A stretch of 64,000 nucleotides of DNA from a bacterium. Its GTDB lineage: Bacteria; Sumerlaeota; Sumerlaeia; SLMS01; JAHLLQ01. The notes below the pieces were generated by a model. That model was not told the DNA's origin. It ran no database searches and saw only the letters and a list, made by a program, of their open reading frames with translations. A program made the position numbers and the translations under genes. The stretch covers positions 434,001 through 498,000 of the forward strand of contig JAHLLQ010000001.1 of the NCBI GenBank assembly GCA_020444065.1, written 5' to 3'. Shown here piece by piece: positions 23,332 to 37,756 of the stretch (positions are counted from its first letter, which is position 1; each line of letters starts with the position of its first letter).

Positions 23332-25986
23332 ATGCAGACGCCGGACAGCCAAGTTCCCGAGTCCAGCCCGCTGCGACGGGCGATCTTCCCGTTTGCGGGG
23401 CTGTGGAAGCTGTGTTGGCTACGGCTGATTCGGGCGTGGCGGTGGCGGGCAGCGCTGCTGGTGTCGCTGATTGGCGCCTACATAATGGATTCCGGGATGT
23501 CGTTTGGACCCGGCGCCGCAGTGGCATTTCCCGGTGGTGAGATTGGCATCCGAGCGTTCTCCATCTTCTTCACGACCGCGGCTCTGGTTCTGGGCGTCGA
23601 CCTGGTCGGCCAACTCGATCGGCACTTCGCACGGAGAGCTTTCGACGCGCGACCGCTGCCGGGCCTATCGGTTCAAGCGGCGCGGTGTCTGGCCGTCGCG
23701 GCTGCTCTGCTAATTCCCGCCGCCGTCGTCACCATCTTCCCGTTCGCCTCTCCCTTCAACGATCATGGGAAGCTGCTGGTGGAACCCTCTTTGGTCCTAT
23801 TTGCCTGCGTCTTGGCGCCCTTGATCCTTGCTGGTGCATCTGCAGGCGTGTTCATGCGGTCATTCCTGCCAAACGATGGGGCGGCGCTGATTACGGGCGG
23901 AATCCTGCTGGTTCCAGTCGTCTGGCACCGGCTTATGCTGTCACACCCGGAGGAAATCCTCACGACAGCGTCTCGAAGTCTCGGGCTGCTCGTCCCGTCT
24001 TCGCTGCTGATCCAAGATGCCGTAGTTTGCCTCCTCGCCGCAGGGTTGTTCCTGGGTCTGGCAGTTCTGACGGTCCGCCGGGTTCGCCCAGCAACGCCGT
24101 TGCGTCGCCTCGATCCACCAAAGGGCTCGTTCCTACCATCGGCGCGGCGTGCGTTAGGCTTCGTTGGACGCTGTTTCAGGGCGCCACTGCCGAGCCTCGC
24201 GGGTGCGTTCGTGCTCATTCTGGCGGGTCTGTTGGCCGTTGCGACTTATGCGACCATGCGGCCGGTTCCGGAGTTCGATCCGGATTGGACGCTCCTGACG
24301 CAGCCTTCTGCAGCCACCCGCGGGCAGCTCCTGCCGCCCCGAATCATGCGCCGGGATATTGATATTCCCGACAACCCGGCCGAGCCGTACAGCGTCAGCC
24401 TGACCTTGAACGCCCTGCACGATCAGCCCCAGGTCCTCGCGGCTGTCACGTTCGGGCCAACGGTGGATCTTGTCGGCATCGACCGCGATGGCGGCGAGGT
24501 ACAAGTCGTTCCGACGGCAACGTCGCCGAAGATGTACGCGTACGCGCTTCGTTTCGATCCCCCACTGTCTCCGGATTCGGGCACGGAAGTCACATTCCAG
24601 CTGAAGCCCAAGCCTTCTGCACTTCGCCTCTGGGAGCGCACGCGCCATCCGGTGTTCGCCTCGTTCCAGTCCCTCCCCTACTGGTATGGCGAAGGTGCCG
24701 CCATCGATTATGCGTTCGAGAATTTCAACATCACCGAGCAAGGAACGCCGTTCGAGATCGCGCTGCCGGATGTGGAACCGCGGCGATGGTTCGCTGGCGC
24801 AGCAGTCACCTTCCGGCAAAACGGCCGACAGACGGTCGAGTCGCGTGCGGCAGATGTGCCGCGTGGGTTGTTCGCCGCGGAACTGGTAACCGTCCGCGCG
24901 GCTGAGGGGTCGCTGGATGTTCAATTCGTGGTCTTCCCCGAACACAAGGAACTGGCCGAGGGCCTGGAAGTAGCCTATGCGAGACGATTCGATCGCCTGC
25001 GGCGGGCATTTGGACAACCCCCGGCACCGCTGGTCTATTACGAAGTCCCCCAGGCGAATCCGCGCGATCCGATGGCGATCAGCTCCGCCGAGTTGGATCG
25101 GCTGAATGAAGTGCTGGAGGACTACAGCGACTACGAGAATCCCACGGCGGGGCAGTTCGACGAGGCGTTCGCACGGCTGCATTTCGGCGCCGTGACTCGG
25201 ATGTTCGCTGGCAGCTTCGCCGGATTCGAGCACCCGGAGTTGCTCCGGGATGCGTGGATTGAGTACCTCGACGGCCTGGCGTTCAACCGCGGCCAGACAC
25301 GACTGATGACGCGGATGGGTCGCGATTTCATCTTCGTACCGTGGGACTGGCAGCACAGAGAAGGGCGATTCCCCTTCGATCTGACGCCGCAGCAGGAACC
25401 GGGTTTCCGCGGGCCGATGTTGAAGTCGGATCGCCCACCGAATCTGGTCCCTGTCCCGCAGGAGCGGCGACTGGCCTTCCATCACATGCTGCGTGGCGTC
25501 CTTGGCGACGATGAGTACGCGCAGTTCCTTCGGACGCTGATCGATCAGAATCGCGCGAAGATCCTGACGCTGGCGGCAGTAAAGCAGACCGCCGAGGCGA
25601 CGGCCGGGAAGGACTTAGGCTGGTTCTTCGACCAGTGGCTGCGAGACGGCGTCGTGCCGCAGTATGATCTGAGCAAAGCGCAGGTGATCCTGGCTGAGAA
25701 TCCGGAGACTCGGGAGCTGGAATACACGACGCGGGTGGTCTTGAAGAACGAAGGCGATGGCCGTATGCCGGTGCCGGTTGTCCTGAGTACCGAGTCGGAC
25801 GAGATTCGGCGCGAATTCGACGTTACGGCCGGCGAGGAGGTTTCCATCACCTTCGTGACGCGGGATCGGCCAATTTCCGTGTCGGCAGACCCGGACGGGT
25901 GGATTGTTCAGATGCCGGAATTCGACGAGTTGGCCAAACGTCCTGTCCATCCACAGGTCTTATTGAAGACGGTGAAGGAACTTTAA
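23332..25986 (+). CDS. Membrane protein with degenerate M1-peptidase-like domain
   Basis: An 884-residue protein. Residues about 35-305 hold roughly eight membrane helices, like an ABC-2-type permease. Residues about 330-884 form a periplasmic region whose middle looks like an M1 (gluzincin) aminopeptidase. The zinc motif HExxH-x18-E is replaced by H617-F-G-A-V621 followed exactly 18 residues later by D640 (LRDAWIEYLDG, matching the family's LNEGFAEY). So only the first His is kept, and the domain should be inactive. An Ig-like beta domain closes the protein. M1 domains fused to ABC-2 permeases are known in transport loci, but no ATPase partner lies here. The next gene follows after 92 bases. 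Confidence 0.7.
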   Translation: MQTPDSQVPESSPLRRAIFPFAGLWKLCWLRLIRAWRWRAALLVSLIGAYIMDSGMSFGPGAAVAFPGGEIGIRAFSIFFTTAALVLGVDLVGQLDRHFARRAFDARPLPGLSVQAARCLAVAAALLIPAAVVTIFPFASPFNDHGKLLVEPSLVLFACVLAPLILAGASAGVFMRSFLPNDGAALITGGILLVPVVWHRLMLSHPEEILTTASRSLGLLVPSSLLIQDAVVCLLAAGLFLGLAVLTVRRVRPATPLRRLDPPKGSFLPSARRALGFVGRCFRAPLPSLAGAFVLILAGLLAVATYATMRPVPEFDPDWTLLTQPSAATRGQLLPPRIMRRDIDIPDNPAEPYSVSLTLNALHDQPQVLAAVTFGPTVDLVGIDRDGGEVQVVPTATSPKMYAYALRFDPPLSPDSGTEVTFQLKPKPSALRLWERTRHPVFASFQSLPYWYGEGAAIDYAFENFNITEQGTPFEIALPDVEPRRWFAGAAVTFRQNGRQTVESRAADVPRGLFAAELVTVRAAEGSLDVQFVVFPEHKELAEGLEVAYARRFDRLRRAFGQPPAPLVYYEVPQANPRDPMAISSAELDRLNEVLEDYSDYENPTAGQFDEAFARLHFGAVTRMFAGSFAGFEHPELLRDAWIEYLDGLAFNRGQTRLMTRMGRDFIFVPWDWQHREGRFPFDLTPQQEPGFRGPMLKSDRPPNLVPVPQERRLAFHHMLRGVLGDDEYAQFLRTLIDQNRAKILTLAAVKQTAEATAGKDLGWFFDQWLRDGVVPQYDLSKAQVILAENPETRELEYTTRVVLKNEGDGRMPVPVVLSTESDEIRREFDVTAGEEVSITFVTRDRPISVSADPDGWIVQMPEFDELAKRPVHPQVLLKTVKEL

Positions 25987-26078: not shown

Positions 26079-26783
26079 ATGCGCAGACTCTCTCTGGTTT
26101 TTTGTACAGCACTGACTTTACTCTTCTTAGTTCCGATTCTGGCGCAAGATGAGGCGACGCCGGAGCCGACCCCGGCCCCGAAGGGCAATGACGCCGTCGA
26201 GTTCCTGAAGCAGATCGAGGCCAAGAATAAGGATATCGAGACGCTGTGGGGGAAGTTCCATCAGCTTCGGGTCAACCCGATGTTCATGGAAGAGGTGGAG
26301 AGCAACGGCGAATTCTGGTACACCAAGCCGAATCACTTCCGGGCGGACTACTTCGAGCCATCCGAGATTCGCTTCTACATGTTCAAAGACGCGATTCTGA
26401 GCTACACGCCCAGCCTGCAGCAGGTCGAGAAGTACCCGGTCGAGAATGAAGATTCCGCCCCGATCAACCAGTTGCTGGTAGGATTCGGCGTAGAGACAGA
26501 GCGTATTCTGGATGTCTTCAATGTCCGGATGGCCGAAAAGCAGCCGGAGGACGAGAATCTCGTCAGCATCGCCTTTGTCTCGCGCGATGTGGAGCGGACA
26601 ATGGGTTACCAGCGCATCACAGTAACGTTCGATCGGAAGAAGCTGGAGCCGAAGGAGATCTTCCTCGAGGAAGAGCAGGACACGGTCACGGTGACCCTCC
26701 AAGAGGTGAAGTTCAACGCGAAGATCCCGCCGGAGACTTATGAGCCGGACTGGGGTGACGACGTGGAAGTGATCACGTATTGA
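26079..26783 (+). CDS. LolA-like outer-membrane lipoprotein carrier family protein
   Basis: A 234-residue periplasmic protein. Residues 1-22 are a signal peptide, followed by a Thr/Pro/Glu linker (EATPEPTPAP). Residues about 40-230 have the LolA pattern: a first helix with AVEFLKQIEAKNKDIETL, then strands WGKFHQLRVNPMF, SNGEFWYTKPNHFRADY and ILSYTPSLQQVEKYPV. LolA carries lipoproteins across the periplasm; relatives bind other acyl lipids, so cargo is uncertain. It heads a plus-strand series with an LptE-like lipoprotein, a histidine kinase, a response regulator and a polyphosphate glucokinase, with gaps of 87, 53, 2 and 49 bases. Confidence 0.8.
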   Translation: MRRLSLVFCTALTLLFLVPILAQDEATPEPTPAPKGNDAVEFLKQIEAKNKDIETLWGKFHQLRVNPMFMEEVESNGEFWYTKPNHFRADYFEPSEIRFYMFKDAILSYTPSLQQVEKYPVENEDSAPINQLLVGFGVETERILDVFNVRMAEKQPEDENLVSIAFVSRDVERTMGYQRITVTFDRKKLEPKEIFLEEEQDTVTVTLQEVKFNAKIPPETYEPDWGDDVEVITY

Positions 26784-26870: not shown

Positions 26871-27443
26871 ATGAAACGGCACTCGCTCCGTACCCTGCTG
26901 ACGATGGCAATCCTGACCGTACTGGCCGCAGCAATGATGACCGGGTGTACCCGGATTCCGCGCCAGCGCACACTGCCCCCGTCGATTCGCTCGGTGTCCG
27001 TGCCGATGTTCATCAATCGCTCTGCAGAGCCGCAGATCGAAGAGGACGCCACGGTCTACACCCAGGAAGAATTTCTCGCGGACGGGCGCCTGGACCTGGT
27101 TCGCCCGGAGAAGGCGGATGCAATCATCGACGTGACCATCGATGATTTCGTCGAGGAGAGCCCCTACCTGGATTCGGACGATTTGCCCGAGTCAACGCAG
27201 TACACAATTACGGCAACGGTCGAAGTGAAGCGCAATGTCCCGGGAATGCCTGTCATCGGCGGTGCGCGTCAGGTTATTGCATACGGGGGCTTCAATAGCG
27301 ACAAACGCCGCGTAAGCTACGAGCCGGAGCCGGTCGGGAAAGAACGCGTGCTGCGTGATTTTGCTCGCCTGATCGTTCGCGAAGTCATCACCGGCGAGTA
27401 TTCCGCCGAAGAGTACCTGGTTCCGTCGCCGTTGAGCCCGTGA
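26871..27443 (+). CDS. LptE-like outer membrane lipoprotein
   Basis: A 190-residue lipoprotein with a signal ending in MMTGC (C26). The mature part starts with LPPSIRSVSVPMFINRSAEP, the strand-and-turn pattern of the LptE/LPS-assembly family. This is followed by TQEEFLADGRLDLV and later beta strands and a final helix (RDFARLIVREVI). LptE plugs the LptD barrel that inserts lipopolysaccharide in the outer leaflet. No lptD is in the window, so the assignment rests on the domain pattern alone. Together with the LolA-like gene upstream it suggests an outer-membrane theme for this segment. Confidence 0.72.
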   Translation: MKRHSLRTLLTMAILTVLAAAMMTGCTRIPRQRTLPPSIRSVSVPMFINRSAEPQIEEDATVYTQEEFLADGRLDLVRPEKADAIIDVTIDDFVEESPYLDSDDLPESTQYTITATVEVKRNVPGMPVIGGARQVIAYGGFNSDKRRVSYEPEPVGKERVLRDFARLIVREVITGEYSAEEYLVPSPLSP

Positions 27444-29610: not shown

Positions 29611-30879
29611 ATGCCGGTAAAAGTACTGATCGTGGATGACAACGCGATGTATCGCAACGCATTCAAACGCAACATGATGTTGCAGAACTACGACGTTGTC
29701 GAAGCGGAAAACGCAGAGCAGGCGATCGGCGTCTACCAGGAATCTCGGCCGGATGTGGTCGTTACGGATCTGAGTATGGGTTCGCCGACAGAGGGCCTTG
29801 ACTTGATTCGATCGATCAAACAGGTGGAGCCGCTGGTACCTATCGTGATGATCAGCGCAGTCGGTACGTTTGAAGAGGGTGCAGAAGCCTCGCGACTTGG
29901 CGCTCATTCCGTGATCAGCAAGGCCCGCATTGATGAGGAGATTGAAAGCCTCTATCGAACCATCGAAGAGGCCAGCCAAGTCGGTGAACTCAACCGAAAC
30001 GTTCGCGATGAAGTGCAGCAGCTCTCCGGCGGACCAGAGGGCGAGGTCTCGCAGGATCGAATCGATCGCTTGCGGCAGATCATTGGCAATCCGAAGCTCC
30101 ACGCCAGCGTCCGTGGCGAGGCGTACGACGCTTTGCTTCAAGCAACCGAGACGGAAGTTCGCCTGTCCATGGAGAAAGAAGTCGAGGAGGCCGATCGCGC
30201 AGAACTGGAAGAAGCAGAGCAGCGACTCGAGGAATTGATCCCCGGGTTCCAATCGTTTTCGGCGGATTCGCGAAAGGAGCTTTGCACGGCGGAGTACTTC
30301 TTCCATCGCCAGGGCGGAGACCACGTGCAGGGACAGGCGGACTTCTCTCGCAATATCGGTTTTTCGTTCTGCTTTGCGGTGGAAAACGAAGCAAAGAGCC
30401 GTCTGCGCAAGCGTTTACACAAGTTCCTGTCAAATAGCGACTCGGTTCGGCTGATCCGCAAGTTGATCGACAAGAAGACAGGCCAGCTCGACCTATTCTA
30501 CCATCAACATCTCGCGCGGCTGCAGCAGCAAGTGGCGTTTGATTTCACGATCGACAACGTCCGCCAGGTCTTCCAGCGGATCCTCGAGCACGAGTCGCGC
30601 TACAAGCCCGACGGCCTGAAGGCACTTGGGATCATGGTGTTGTGCTTTGGACGAGAGTACTCGATCAAGACGTTGCGCGAGACGATCAAGATCAACAATC
30701 CGATGAATCTGCGCGGGTTCGAGTCGGAGAACGAGATCATTCGGTTTGCGCACTTGCTGGTCTCGCTCCAGCACTATCGCAATCCGTACATCCATCCCGA
30801 GATCAGCGAGATGGAGAAGATTTCGAAGATTCGCGAAACTGCCATCCAATGCTTGCGCGAAATCTCCCGGTTAGGGTGA
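29611..30879 (+). CDS. Response regulator with C-terminal HEPN-like domain
   Basis: A 422-residue protein. Residues 1-125 are a receiver domain with acidic pair D9-D10, phosphoacceptor D53 (VVTDLSM), a Ser in VMISA and a Lys in VISKARI. A coiled, acidic linker follows (about 125-225). The C-terminal domain (about 230-422) has an all-helical pattern: LCTAEYFF, then FSRNIGFSFCFAVENEAK, and near the end HYRNPYIHPEI, in which R390-N391-x3-H395 is the R-X4-H signature of HEPN domains. HEPN proteins are often RNases of defence, toxin-antitoxin and RNA-processing systems; some are inactive. No DNA-binding output domain is present. It is probably controlled by phosphorylation from the adjacent kinase. 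The HEPN call is inference from the motif and layout. Confidence 0.75.
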   Translation: MPVKVLIVDDNAMYRNAFKRNMMLQNYDVVEAENAEQAIGVYQESRPDVVVTDLSMGSPTEGLDLIRSIKQVEPLVPIVMISAVGTFEEGAEASRLGAHSVISKARIDEEIESLYRTIEEASQVGELNRNVRDEVQQLSGGPEGEVSQDRIDRLRQIIGNPKLHASVRGEAYDALLQATETEVRLSMEKEVEEADRAELEEAEQRLEELIPGFQSFSADSRKELCTAEYFFHRQGGDHVQGQADFSRNIGFSFCFAVENEAKSRLRKRLHKFLSNSDSVRLIRKLIDKKTGQLDLFYHQHLARLQQQVAFDFTIDNVRQVFQRILEHESRYKPDGLKALGIMVLCFGREYSIKTLRETIKINNPMNLRGFESENEIIRFAHLLVSLQHYRNPYIHPEISEMEKISKIRETAIQCLREISRLG

Positions 30880-34537: not shown

Positions 34538-35161
34538 TTACTTCTTCTTGTCCTTGCCCTTGGCCGTCTTCTCGGCAACCGGCCCCTTGGACTCGATAAC
34601 CTGGTCGATGAGCTTGTATTGGACCGCTTCGGCCGCGGAGAGGAATTTGTCGCGATCGGTATCCTCGCGGATCTGGTCCATGCTCCGACCGGTATGGCTC
34701 GAGAGGATCTCATTCAGGCGATCCCTTATCCGCAACATTTCCTTGGCCTGGATCTCAATGTCGCTGGCCTGGCCCTGCATGCCGCCAAGGGGTTGATGGA
34801 TCATGACGCGGGCATTCGGAAGGGCGAAACGCTTTCCGTCGGTGCCTGCAGCGAGCAGAACGGCGCCCATGCTGGCGGCCTGGCCAACGCATGTCGTTGC
34901 GATGTCCGGCTTCACAAACTGCATGGTGTCGTAGATCGCCAGGCCGGCCGTGACGCTGCCGCCGGGCGAGTTGATGTACATGTTGATGTCTTTGTCCGGA
35001 TCCTGGCTTTCCAGGAAGAGGAGCTGGGCCGTCACAAGGCTGGCCACCGTGTCGTTGATCGGGGTGCCAATGAAGATGATGCGGTCCATCAGGAGCCGGG
35101 AGAAAATATCCATCGAGCGTTCGCCGCGCTCGGTCTGCTCCAATACGAAGGGGACGTCCAT
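34538..35161 (-). CDS. clpP: ATP-dependent Clp protease proteolytic subunit (copy 1)
   Basis: A 207-residue serine peptidase that forms the ClpP barrel used with ClpX or ClpA-type unfoldases. The catalytic triad is complete: S97 in [12 protein letters not shown]122 in VMIHQPLGG and D171 in DTDRDKF. Other family blocks are [12 protein letters not shown] and AIYDTMQ. The short N-terminus has no propeptide and the C-terminus ends in a Lys-rich tail. The start lies 18 bases after the stop of a second clpP, with AGGAAGG as ribosome site. Last gene of the tig-clpP-clpP operon. Confidence 0.96.
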
Positions 35162-35179
35162 TATCGCTTCCTTCCTGTC

Positions 35180-35893
35180 CTATTTCTTCTGCTCGAGTTG
35201 CTTTTTGCTGACTACGATCTGGTCGATGATGCCGTACTCCAGCGCTTCTTCCGGTCCCATGAAGTTGTCGCGCCGGCAGTCGCGCTCGATCTGCTCGACG
35301 GACTTGCCGGTGTGATCCGCCATGATCTGGTAGAGCCGCTCGCGCAGGCGAATCAGCTCCTGGGTCTGGATTTCGATATCGAGGGAAACGCCGCGGGCAC
35401 CGCCGCTGGGCTGGTGAATCATGATCCGGGAATTCGGGAGGGCGAAACGCTGTCCGTCTGCCCCGGCCAGTAGAATCACGGCGCCCATGCTGGCTGCCTC
35501 GCCGATCACCGTTGTGGAGACCTGCGGCTTGACCAGTTGCATCGTGTCGTAGATCGCTAGGCCTGACGTGATCGATCCGCCGGGCGAGTTGATGTAGATG
35601 CTGATGGGCTTGTCGGGGTCCTGGCTTTGCAGGAAGAGCAATTGCGCGCAAACCAGGTTGGAGAGCCGATCGTCGAACTCGCGGTTGATCAGGATGATTC
35701 GATCGACCAGCAGTCGGGAGTACAGATCGAAAACGCGCTCGCCGCGCTCGGTCTGTTCGAAGACGCGCGGAACGGGGATGTAGTAGACTTCATCCTCGTC
35801 GTGGGCGACAGGCCGGCGGACGCCCTTGTGGGGCGTCGCCGTTGCCTCGATCGCCTGGCGGACTGCCGGTGGCAAGTCCTGAGGCGTGAACAT
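35180..35893 (-). CDS. clpP: ATP-dependent Clp protease proteolytic subunit (copy 2)
   Basis: A 237-residue ClpP paralogue. The triad is present: S135 in [12 protein letters not shown]160 in IMIHQPSGG and D209 in DCRRDNF. It is longer than its neighbour by an N-terminal extension of about 40 residues ([20 protein letters not shown]), which could be a propeptide or modulate barrel assembly. Two complete subunits suggest homo- or heterooligomeric barrels, as in some actinobacteria and cyanobacteria. The start ATG overlaps the last base of the trigger factor stop codon (TAATG), so translation is coupled. Confidence 0.95.
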
Positions 35894-37329
35894 TACTCGC
35901 TGCCTTCCTCGCCGGCCGCTTCACCGGCGGCTTCTTCCTTTTTCTCGACGACCTTGACGGCCGCCTTTTCAATCAGCATGTCGTTGATCTTACGCATGCG
36001 AACGTTGGCGCGCAACTCCTCAAGGGCCTTCTTGGCCTCGAGCTGAGCACGAACGGACAGGGGCTTGCGGCCCTGGGCTTCGGCGATGCGTTCGATTTCC
36101 TTGTCCAGATCCTCGTCGCTGACTTCAACGTTCAGGTGACGGCCGATCTGGTCGACAATCAGCATCGTCTTCACGTCGCTGCGGGCTTCCGTACGAGCCT
36201 TGTTGACGAAGTTCGTCAGCATATCGCGGCCGAACTGACGCAGGCTGATTCCCATCTGGTTCAGGCGGTCTTCGGTCTGTTCCAGCGACTGGTGGGCCTT
36301 GTGCTCGACGAGGCTCGGCGGAATGTCGAAGTCCACGCGATCGCGCAGCACGTGGTGGATCTCGGTCAGGGTTTCCTGGCGCTTGCGATCGTCCTCGACC
36401 CGCTCCAGTTCCTTGCGGATCTCAGCCTTCAGGTCGGCGAACGTCTCGAACTTGTCGGAAACGTCCTTGGCAAACTCGTCATCGAGTTCGGGCTGGATGC
36501 GCTTCTTCACTTCGTGAATCGTGATCGCGTAGTGGTACTTGTGCGAATGATCGCCGTGCGCCTGCTCGATGTCGGCCTCGGCGGTATCGCCCTTCTTCTT
36601 GCCGGCCAGGGCCGCCAGGACGCCTTCGGGCATGTCCTGCTTCAGGTTCTGGGAGTAATCATTGTCTCGGCACATATCGGAAATCCGATCGCCGCTGTCC
36701 GGATCGGTGACGACGAGATCGTAGCTCAGGGCGTCGTTCTCTTCGAAGGCGGCATCGTCGGCCGCTTCGTAGGTCGCGTTCTGGGCACGGAGGGCTTCGA
36801 TTTCCTTCTCGACGCGCTCGTTATCGACGGGCTGCTCGGTGACTTCGACTTCGATGCCGGCGAGCGTCTCGTCCTCGACTTTGATCTCAGGACGAATCTC
36901 GAGGACGATCTTGGCGACGGCGCTCTTGTCCTCGCCCTCTTCCCAACCTTCGAACCCGGGCTGGGCCAGAACTTCGTAGCCCTTCTCTTCGCCAATCAAC
37001 TCGGCCAGACGCGGAACCATCTTGCGAACGGCTTCGTCACGGGCCGGACGGCCGTAGTGACTGCGAATCAGAGCGACGGGAGCCTTGCCGCGGCGGAAGC
37101 CGGGGATGTTGGCGTAGCGCTTGTACTCGGCGAGGACCTCGTCGACCTGGCCCTTGAAGGTGTCTGCCGGAATCTTGACCTGAACCCGCACCTGGGAGCC
37201 CTCGATGGCTTCGGCGCTGAGCACCTCGTGGGGGATCTGCTCATTCTTCTTTTCGATAACAGAGGTCAAGGCCTCGCCTTCGGTCGCTTGGGCCTCGGCG
37301 TTTGTCGAAGTTTCTTTGTTTTCCGCCAC
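35893..37329 (-). CDS. tig: Trigger factor
   Basis: A 478-residue ribosome-associated chaperone. The N-terminal ribosome-binding domain has the signature [12 protein letters not shown]. The middle part is the PPIase-like domain, and the C-terminal helical arms run from about residue 290 to 450 ([18 protein letters not shown] is the usual beginning). The tail is rich in Glu/Ala/Lys ([14 protein letters not shown]). The start is a GTG at 37329, supported by GAGGAG six bases upstream; the frame is open to 37506 but without a good ribosome site. It heads the operon with two clpP genes, the usual coupling of folding and proteolysis. Confidence 0.93.
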
Positions 37330-37756
37330 GTCGGTCTCCTCGTTGTGGTGTTCATCTGCGTGTTTTGGGCCTGGAGCCGGCACCATTGGGGGCAATTCGT
37401 AAGCGTATTTCGCGCCATCTTCGGACTGGGAAACGGAGCGAAACCACTGCGCGATTGCAGGCGAATACAGTCGCCGCCAATCGGAGCCCCAACTGCCGCG
37501 CATCAAGCAGGGGCGGGAGGATTAGCGATCCCCCCCCTTGCCCATCAAGCAAAAAGCGCCCGAAAAGGCGCGATGAAATGCGGAAAACGGCGAGAAGCGC
37601 TCTCTGGAGTGGGCGGATCATTCCGACACGCTCCACGGGATTGTCTGAAGCTGTTGACCCGATGCCCTGGAACAGTCGATCCTGGGGGCAGTGGATTGTC
37701 ACTCTGGCGATCCCACACATCCTCATTTGATGGGAATACTGGGGGCTGAACAGATA
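37330..37756. other. Divergent intergenic region between tig and the large subtilase
   Basis: 427 bases with no convincing gene. It should hold promoters for both strands, though no clean sigma-70 pair is visible. It contains a run of eight Cs at 37530-37537 and two copies of CATCAAGCA about 41 bases apart, one on either side of that run. A short open frame begins before the subtilase ATG but lacks a signal sequence and is not called. Confidence 0.5.

Follow-up and report, generated by a model that had tools for sequence, protein, structure and literature searches.

A proposed two-component system whose output domain is of a new HEPN-like family, probably an RNase gated by phosphorylation

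Bacterial two-component systems mostly end in DNA-binding response regulators. The ANTAR regulators (AmiR, EutV, and NasT type) also couple a two-component signal to an RNA-directed output, and to our knowledge the known RNA-directed outputs of such systems only bind RNA. ANTAR does so to bring about antitermination, whereas the tail of the regulator described here does not match ANTAR and has a nuclease-like motif instead.

The second point of reference is the HEPN superfamily. Its hallmark is the motif Rx4-6H, located where helix 3 ends, in which the arginine is usually followed by N, D, or H. Helix 2 of HEPN domains contributes an acidic Ex3[KR] signature, and a variable insert separates helix 2 from helix 3 (PMC3710099). 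The same study describes a membrane domain that is fused to HEPN in some proteins and to receivers in others, and proposes that RNA may be degraded in response to surface signals, a process called "stimulus-dependent RNA degradation" (PMC3710099). Those membrane-associated HEPN proteins and the system proposed here have a common idea, a surface signal that leads to RNA degradation by HEPN. However, a receiver occurs there only in place of HEPN, whereas the regulator in our window (the whole 64,000-nucleotide stretch of bacterial DNA that was analysed) would hold both in one protein and has a separate kinase. We found no receiver-HEPN fusion in the literature searched, which covered few subscription papers, in keeping with the remark in the initial annotation that a phosphorelay-controlled HEPN effector was not known to be described.

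The open reading frame of the regulator is real and translates to 422 aa (Table 1). Its receiver was reported as complete, and the positions are as claimed: an acid pocket (D9/D10), the phospho-acceptor D53, plus S82 and K104. All five residues are invariant in 30/30 full-length orthologues and again in 34/34 members of another set, in which further phyla are represented. These alignments support a receiver that is intact and would be phosphorylatable, with phosphotransfer to D53 as a prediction. Conserved columns are few across residues 118-206 (alignment A1), and a coiled linker is suggested by eye only.

Table 1. Features of the regulator locus (coordinates in the window)
Feature	Coordinates	Strand	Basis
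LolA-like gene	26079..26783	+	Pfam LolA 9.9e-13
Gene for a small lipoprotein (LptE-like by eye), immediately before the kinase gene	26871..27443	+	No Pfam match; conserved position
Probable cognate membrane sensor histidine kinase, 703 aa	27497..29608	+	Pfam HATPase_c 1.1e-14
Response regulator with HEPN-like output	29611..30879	+	Whole ORF including stop, 422 aa; orthologues
Receiver domain, residues 1-111	29611..29943	+	Pfam Response_reg, residues 5-111, 9e-21
Linker, residues 112-214: variable, charged, probably helical	29944..30252	+	Alignment A1
HEPN-like output domain, residues 215-422	30253..30876	+	Alignments A2 and A5; homology to HEAT-type C-termini
E258-N-E-A-K262, acidic Ex3[KR] signature as expected for helix 2 of HEPN	30382..30396	+	PMC3710099
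Y331-KPDGLK-337, conserved block specific to the family, located between both signatures	30601..30621	+	D334 and G335 invariant, 61/61
R390-N391-P-Y-I-H395, Rx4H catalytic signature of HEPN RNases	30778..30795	+	Invariant, 30/30 and 61/61

The C-terminal domain (~205 residues) is of a different character. Beyond the receiver, searches of Pfam, NCBIfam, PADLOC, and PDB sequences matched nothing, and PHROGs returned noise only. Library searches recognised no DNA-binding motif in it, as anticipated. PDB profile searches with the tail gave nothing credible and matched no solved HEPN structure, and the window's own domain has no significant profile match to any curated HEPN family. The domain had also been called all-helical; helices do appear in our model, and the model itself, a single-sequence AlphaFold prediction made with no alignment, is poor (pLDDT 40). 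Its best part, still unreliable, comprises a helix at 373-390, a loop holding H395, and a helix at 400-420, which would set the RNx3H motif just after a predicted helix. A Foldseek search with this model found nothing and is meaningless, as expected for such input.

The tail carries all of the HEPN sequence features listed in PMC3710099. The stretch HYRNPYIHPE begins at residue 388, which confirms the numbering of R390 and H395, and the R-X4-H signature with an asparagine after the arginine is present and conserved as R390-N391-x3-H395. We checked orthologues for loss of these residues: none of 30 full-length orthologues, of 48 receiver-type domains, or, once the HEAT-type proteins described below are included, of 61 domains departs from R390, N391, or H395. 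About 130 residues upstream, the stretch FSFCFAVENEAK, which the initial annotation had singled out as HEPN-like, proved to contain the second HEPN signature (PMC3710099), E258-x3-K262. Both E258 and K262 are invariant in the same 30 full-length orthologues and 48 receiver-type domains, and position 258 is always acidic in the 61 sequences of both architectures (E in 57, D in 4).

A lone R[NDH]x3H is weak evidence because the motif is not rare in the window's genes, where its frequency is about 0.05 per 200 aa. What counts is that RNx3H survives as an invariant core at such divergence, not that the motif is present. Over the 61 sequences, only D334, G335, A338, Q387, R390, N391, and H395 are invariant, and three invariant columns placed randomly among 208 positions would take the R-N-x3-H spacing with a P of about 2e-5. 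Two alignment rows that seemed to have lost R390/N391 (L111 and L112) were discounted; they are overlapping pieces of one locus and most likely one broken gene counted twice. At that locus (G453, contig 66), the regulator frame changes just before RNx3H, either by assembly error or in a pseudogene.

Remote homologues of the tail form the C-terminus of HEAT-repeat proteins of 800-1000 aa in genomes around G254. Five of these proteins match HEAT_2 (best 3.7e-6), and the remaining ones do so below threshold. The family (L068:7812-10265 and L085-L097) has an unannotated tail and falls into at least two sequence subgroups. Receiver-type and HEAT-type tails are homologous over their full length (hhalign probability 99.2%, E 8.6e-20; 5.6e-22 in the reverse direction) and have the D-G-A-Q-R-N-H invariants in common; in the HEAT-type proteins, however, HEAT-like repeats replace the receiver, and the proteins occur in other phyla. 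Their motif reads RNRAAHEG, RNPAAHR, or RNLAAHRG, of which RNRAAHEG is more typical of HEPN. HEAT-type members, unlike the window's own domain, also give sub-threshold matches to DUF4145 (0.033), Abi_2 (0.21), and HEPN_RiboL-PSP (0.22) in Pfam and to CARF_HEPN (0.014) in PADLOC. Every one of these matches spans the motif and places it at the equivalent end of the profile. Unrelated families score in the same range, and no HEPN match is significant alone; that several HEPN families converge on the motif is nevertheless suggestive. Separately, the tails of L085, L086, L092, L094, and L097 weakly match (0.008-0.03) the PADLOC profile PDLC02907 "TPR" in its C-terminal part (about 705-862 of 864), which raises the possibility that this candidate defence protein ends in the same domain.

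In direct profile-profile comparison by hhalign, matches to HepT (30 sequences), DUF4145 (6), and RiboL-PSP (3) were not significant, the last two alignments being too shallow for a fair test. The best E value, 0.006 with the HEAT-type profile, compares with 0.036-0.86 for negative and reversed controls, and the combined profile matched an unrelated kinase segment better. The proposed HEPN output domain is supported by two signatures that are invariant across phyla but not by profile comparison with three HEPN families. Because that comparison was non-significant and the AlphaFold model poor, we call the domain HEPN-like rather than a proven member, while considering a HEPN-type fold very likely. 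With the HEPN RNases (DUF4145, Abi_2, HEPN_RiboL-PSP, and HepT-like), the tail shares RNx3H with its asparagine, the upstream Ex3K acid, a predicted all-helical domain, and a long insert between the signatures; it differs in its length (the usual domain has 100-120 aa), its own YKPDGLK block, and its fusion to a receiver. A HEPN-MNT (HepT) toxin-antitoxin system was considered and rejected, as the protein has no HepT match and a scan of neighbouring genes recognised no nucleotidyltransferase. The one HepT-like gene found in the window's genome, of the conventional HEPN kind, lies elsewhere (L140; G000 contig 9, 73879-74166).

Directly upstream of the regulator is a membrane sensor histidine kinase whose stop codon lies 2 bp ahead of the regulator ATG. 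Its H447, in GHDLTN, is invariant in 11 homologues. The likeness to AtoS/ZraS/NtrB-like sensor kinases lies in the HATPase_c domain and this H-box, whereas the conserved N-terminal sensor part is the kinase's own. The kinase adjoins the regulator in 23/30 class-level loci and in both third-phylum genomes. In profile searches of the same 386 genomes, we found the kinase family in 40, the regulator in 39, and both in 37; the two thus occur together in 37/42 genomes with either, and 344 have neither (a Fisher test on such counts ignores phylogeny). Three genomes have the kinase only (72-81% complete) and two the regulator only (66% and 81% complete). Among the genomes searched, the kinase family is confined to the same phyla as the regulator, and it is absent from G254, which carries a HEAT-type protein only. 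The pair is kept though unlinked in G012, G015, G018, G021, G029, G035, G036, and G037, as well as in five second-phylum genomes tested. Across 21 genomes, pairwise identities in the kinase correlate with those in the regulator (Spearman 0.78), with a contribution from shared ancestry. That the two proteins form a cognate phosphotransfer pair is, in our assessment, highly probable.

The order LolA / LptE-like / kinase / regulator is found in the window and seven further loci. Because the locus often adjoins these LolA- and LptE-like outer-membrane genes, we infer that the signal comes from the envelope. The surroundings vary elsewhere. In three genomes of one family within the window's class, a gene for RNase PH lies directly upstream of the regulator (L070:7920-8693, L072:7828-8631, and L074:7994-8740; Pfam-confirmed in L070 and L074) and the kinase is elsewhere in the genome. 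RNase PH is adjacent in that one family only, and neither an RNA substrate nor a neighbouring RNA-repair gene is evident. In G038, a 66%-complete genome in which the usual kinase family was not found, the regulator is followed by a different, PAS-containing histidine kinase (L071:8577-11306). The window also holds a pair of neighbouring clpP paralogues with a gene for trigger factor after them (34538-37506, minus strand) and, at 23332-25986 (plus strand), a membrane protein of 884 aa that matches nothing in Pfam at 0.01 and by eye combines an ABC-permease-like N-terminus with an M1-peptidase-like part.

To map the distribution of the regulator, we searched the 386 genomes for orthologues with a tail profile. 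Those of the receiver type occur in 39, 35 of them in the window's phylum and four in other phyla. Within the window's phylum, 35/40 genomes have the regulator, and the five without it are 58-81% complete. All 14 genomes of a second phylum (that of G182) and both genomes of a third (that of G167/G304) have it too. The regulator is single-copy in the window's genome and in nearly every other genome with a match, the exceptions looking like genes split across contigs or frames. In short, the gene is ancient and belongs, as a single copy, to the core of at least three phyla. We found no relative of it in the viral contigs of IMG/VR, and PLSDB plasmids gave one weak and unconvincing match.

We suggest that the locus encodes a two-component system whose output domain is of a new HEPN-like family and is probably an RNase gated by phosphorylation; we give this reading a probability of roughly 0.6. 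An envelope signal would lead the membrane kinase to phosphorylate D53, and the phosphorylated receivers would then pair, or the tail would be released. Two output domains could in this way build a composite, metal-independent active site from H395, R390, N391, and E258, and the active dimer would cut RNA and so adjust RNA processing or decay. The steps differ in strength. Catalytic RNase activity of the tail is somewhat favoured; given catalysis, its control by phosphorylation is likely. The most far-reaching version, a phylum-wide, vertically inherited system in which the regulator itself is the endoribonuclease and the kinase directly switches RNA cleavage with no transcription factor between, is offered tentatively.

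The main rival to an RNase is a non-catalytic HEPN-like tail, in which the fold would serve as a phosphorylation-controlled RNA-binding or protein-docking domain that does no cutting, comparable in its outcome to ANTAR. There are response regulators with RNA-binding activity (ANTAR; PMC3369931), some HEPN domains that have no motif are non-catalytic RNA binders (PMC3710099), and a housekeeping core gene is easier to square with a non-destructive activity. As such non-catalytic domains exist, a HEPN fold alone would not prove cutting. Nonetheless, HEPN domains that dispense with catalysis have typically lost Rx4-6H (PMC3710099), whereas R390, N391, H395, and the acidic residue at 258 are among the most constrained positions here. 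This constraint holds across two architectures, and an active site therefore fits better; we consider a purely binding or docking role unlikely, though the most serious of the rivals. Next in rank is an unrelated helical output, with RNPYIHPE a structural motif or a metal/ligand site that merely resembles the HEPN signature. The lack of any significant HEPN match at the family, profile-profile, or structure level speaks for this, as does the fact that many other residues (e.g., H327, YKPDGLK, Q387, and H388) are invariant among receiver-type orthologues. Against it, the HEAT-type homologues vary most of those others and retain R, N, and H, their motif being RN[RPL]AAH; moreover, Ex3K sits at the expected upstream place and the sub-threshold matches converge on HEPN families at the motif. 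We judge such a chance resemblance improbable.

A role in defence, as an abortive-infection effector, would mean that the kinase senses damage to the envelope when phages attack and that the HEPN tail then halts growth. HEPN RNases occur frequently in abortive-infection systems and CRISPR effectors (PMC3710099), and the HEAT-type relatives do give weak PADLOC matches, but the regulator itself has no informative one. Its standing as a single-copy core gene of whole phyla, the conserved LolA/LptE-like neighbourhood, and the IMG/VR and PLSDB results all run counter to this idea, which we regard as very improbable. More generally, core-gene status and the fact that no antitoxin partner was recognised led us to reject a toxin-antitoxin or defence module. 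Because the gene is single-copy, core, and non-mobile, we consider regulated RNA processing or turnover more likely than a defence toxin.

The prediction of a kinase-controlled RNase hangs on few residues, and one purified protein suffices to test it. If true, the system would be a testable case of the stimulus-dependent RNA degradation that was only proposed in PMC3710099, and the HEPN superfamily would gain a family outside toxins and defence. It would also constitute a direct switch from kinase to RNA cleavage, by which bacteria would answer an outside signal by cutting RNA and not by gene activation.
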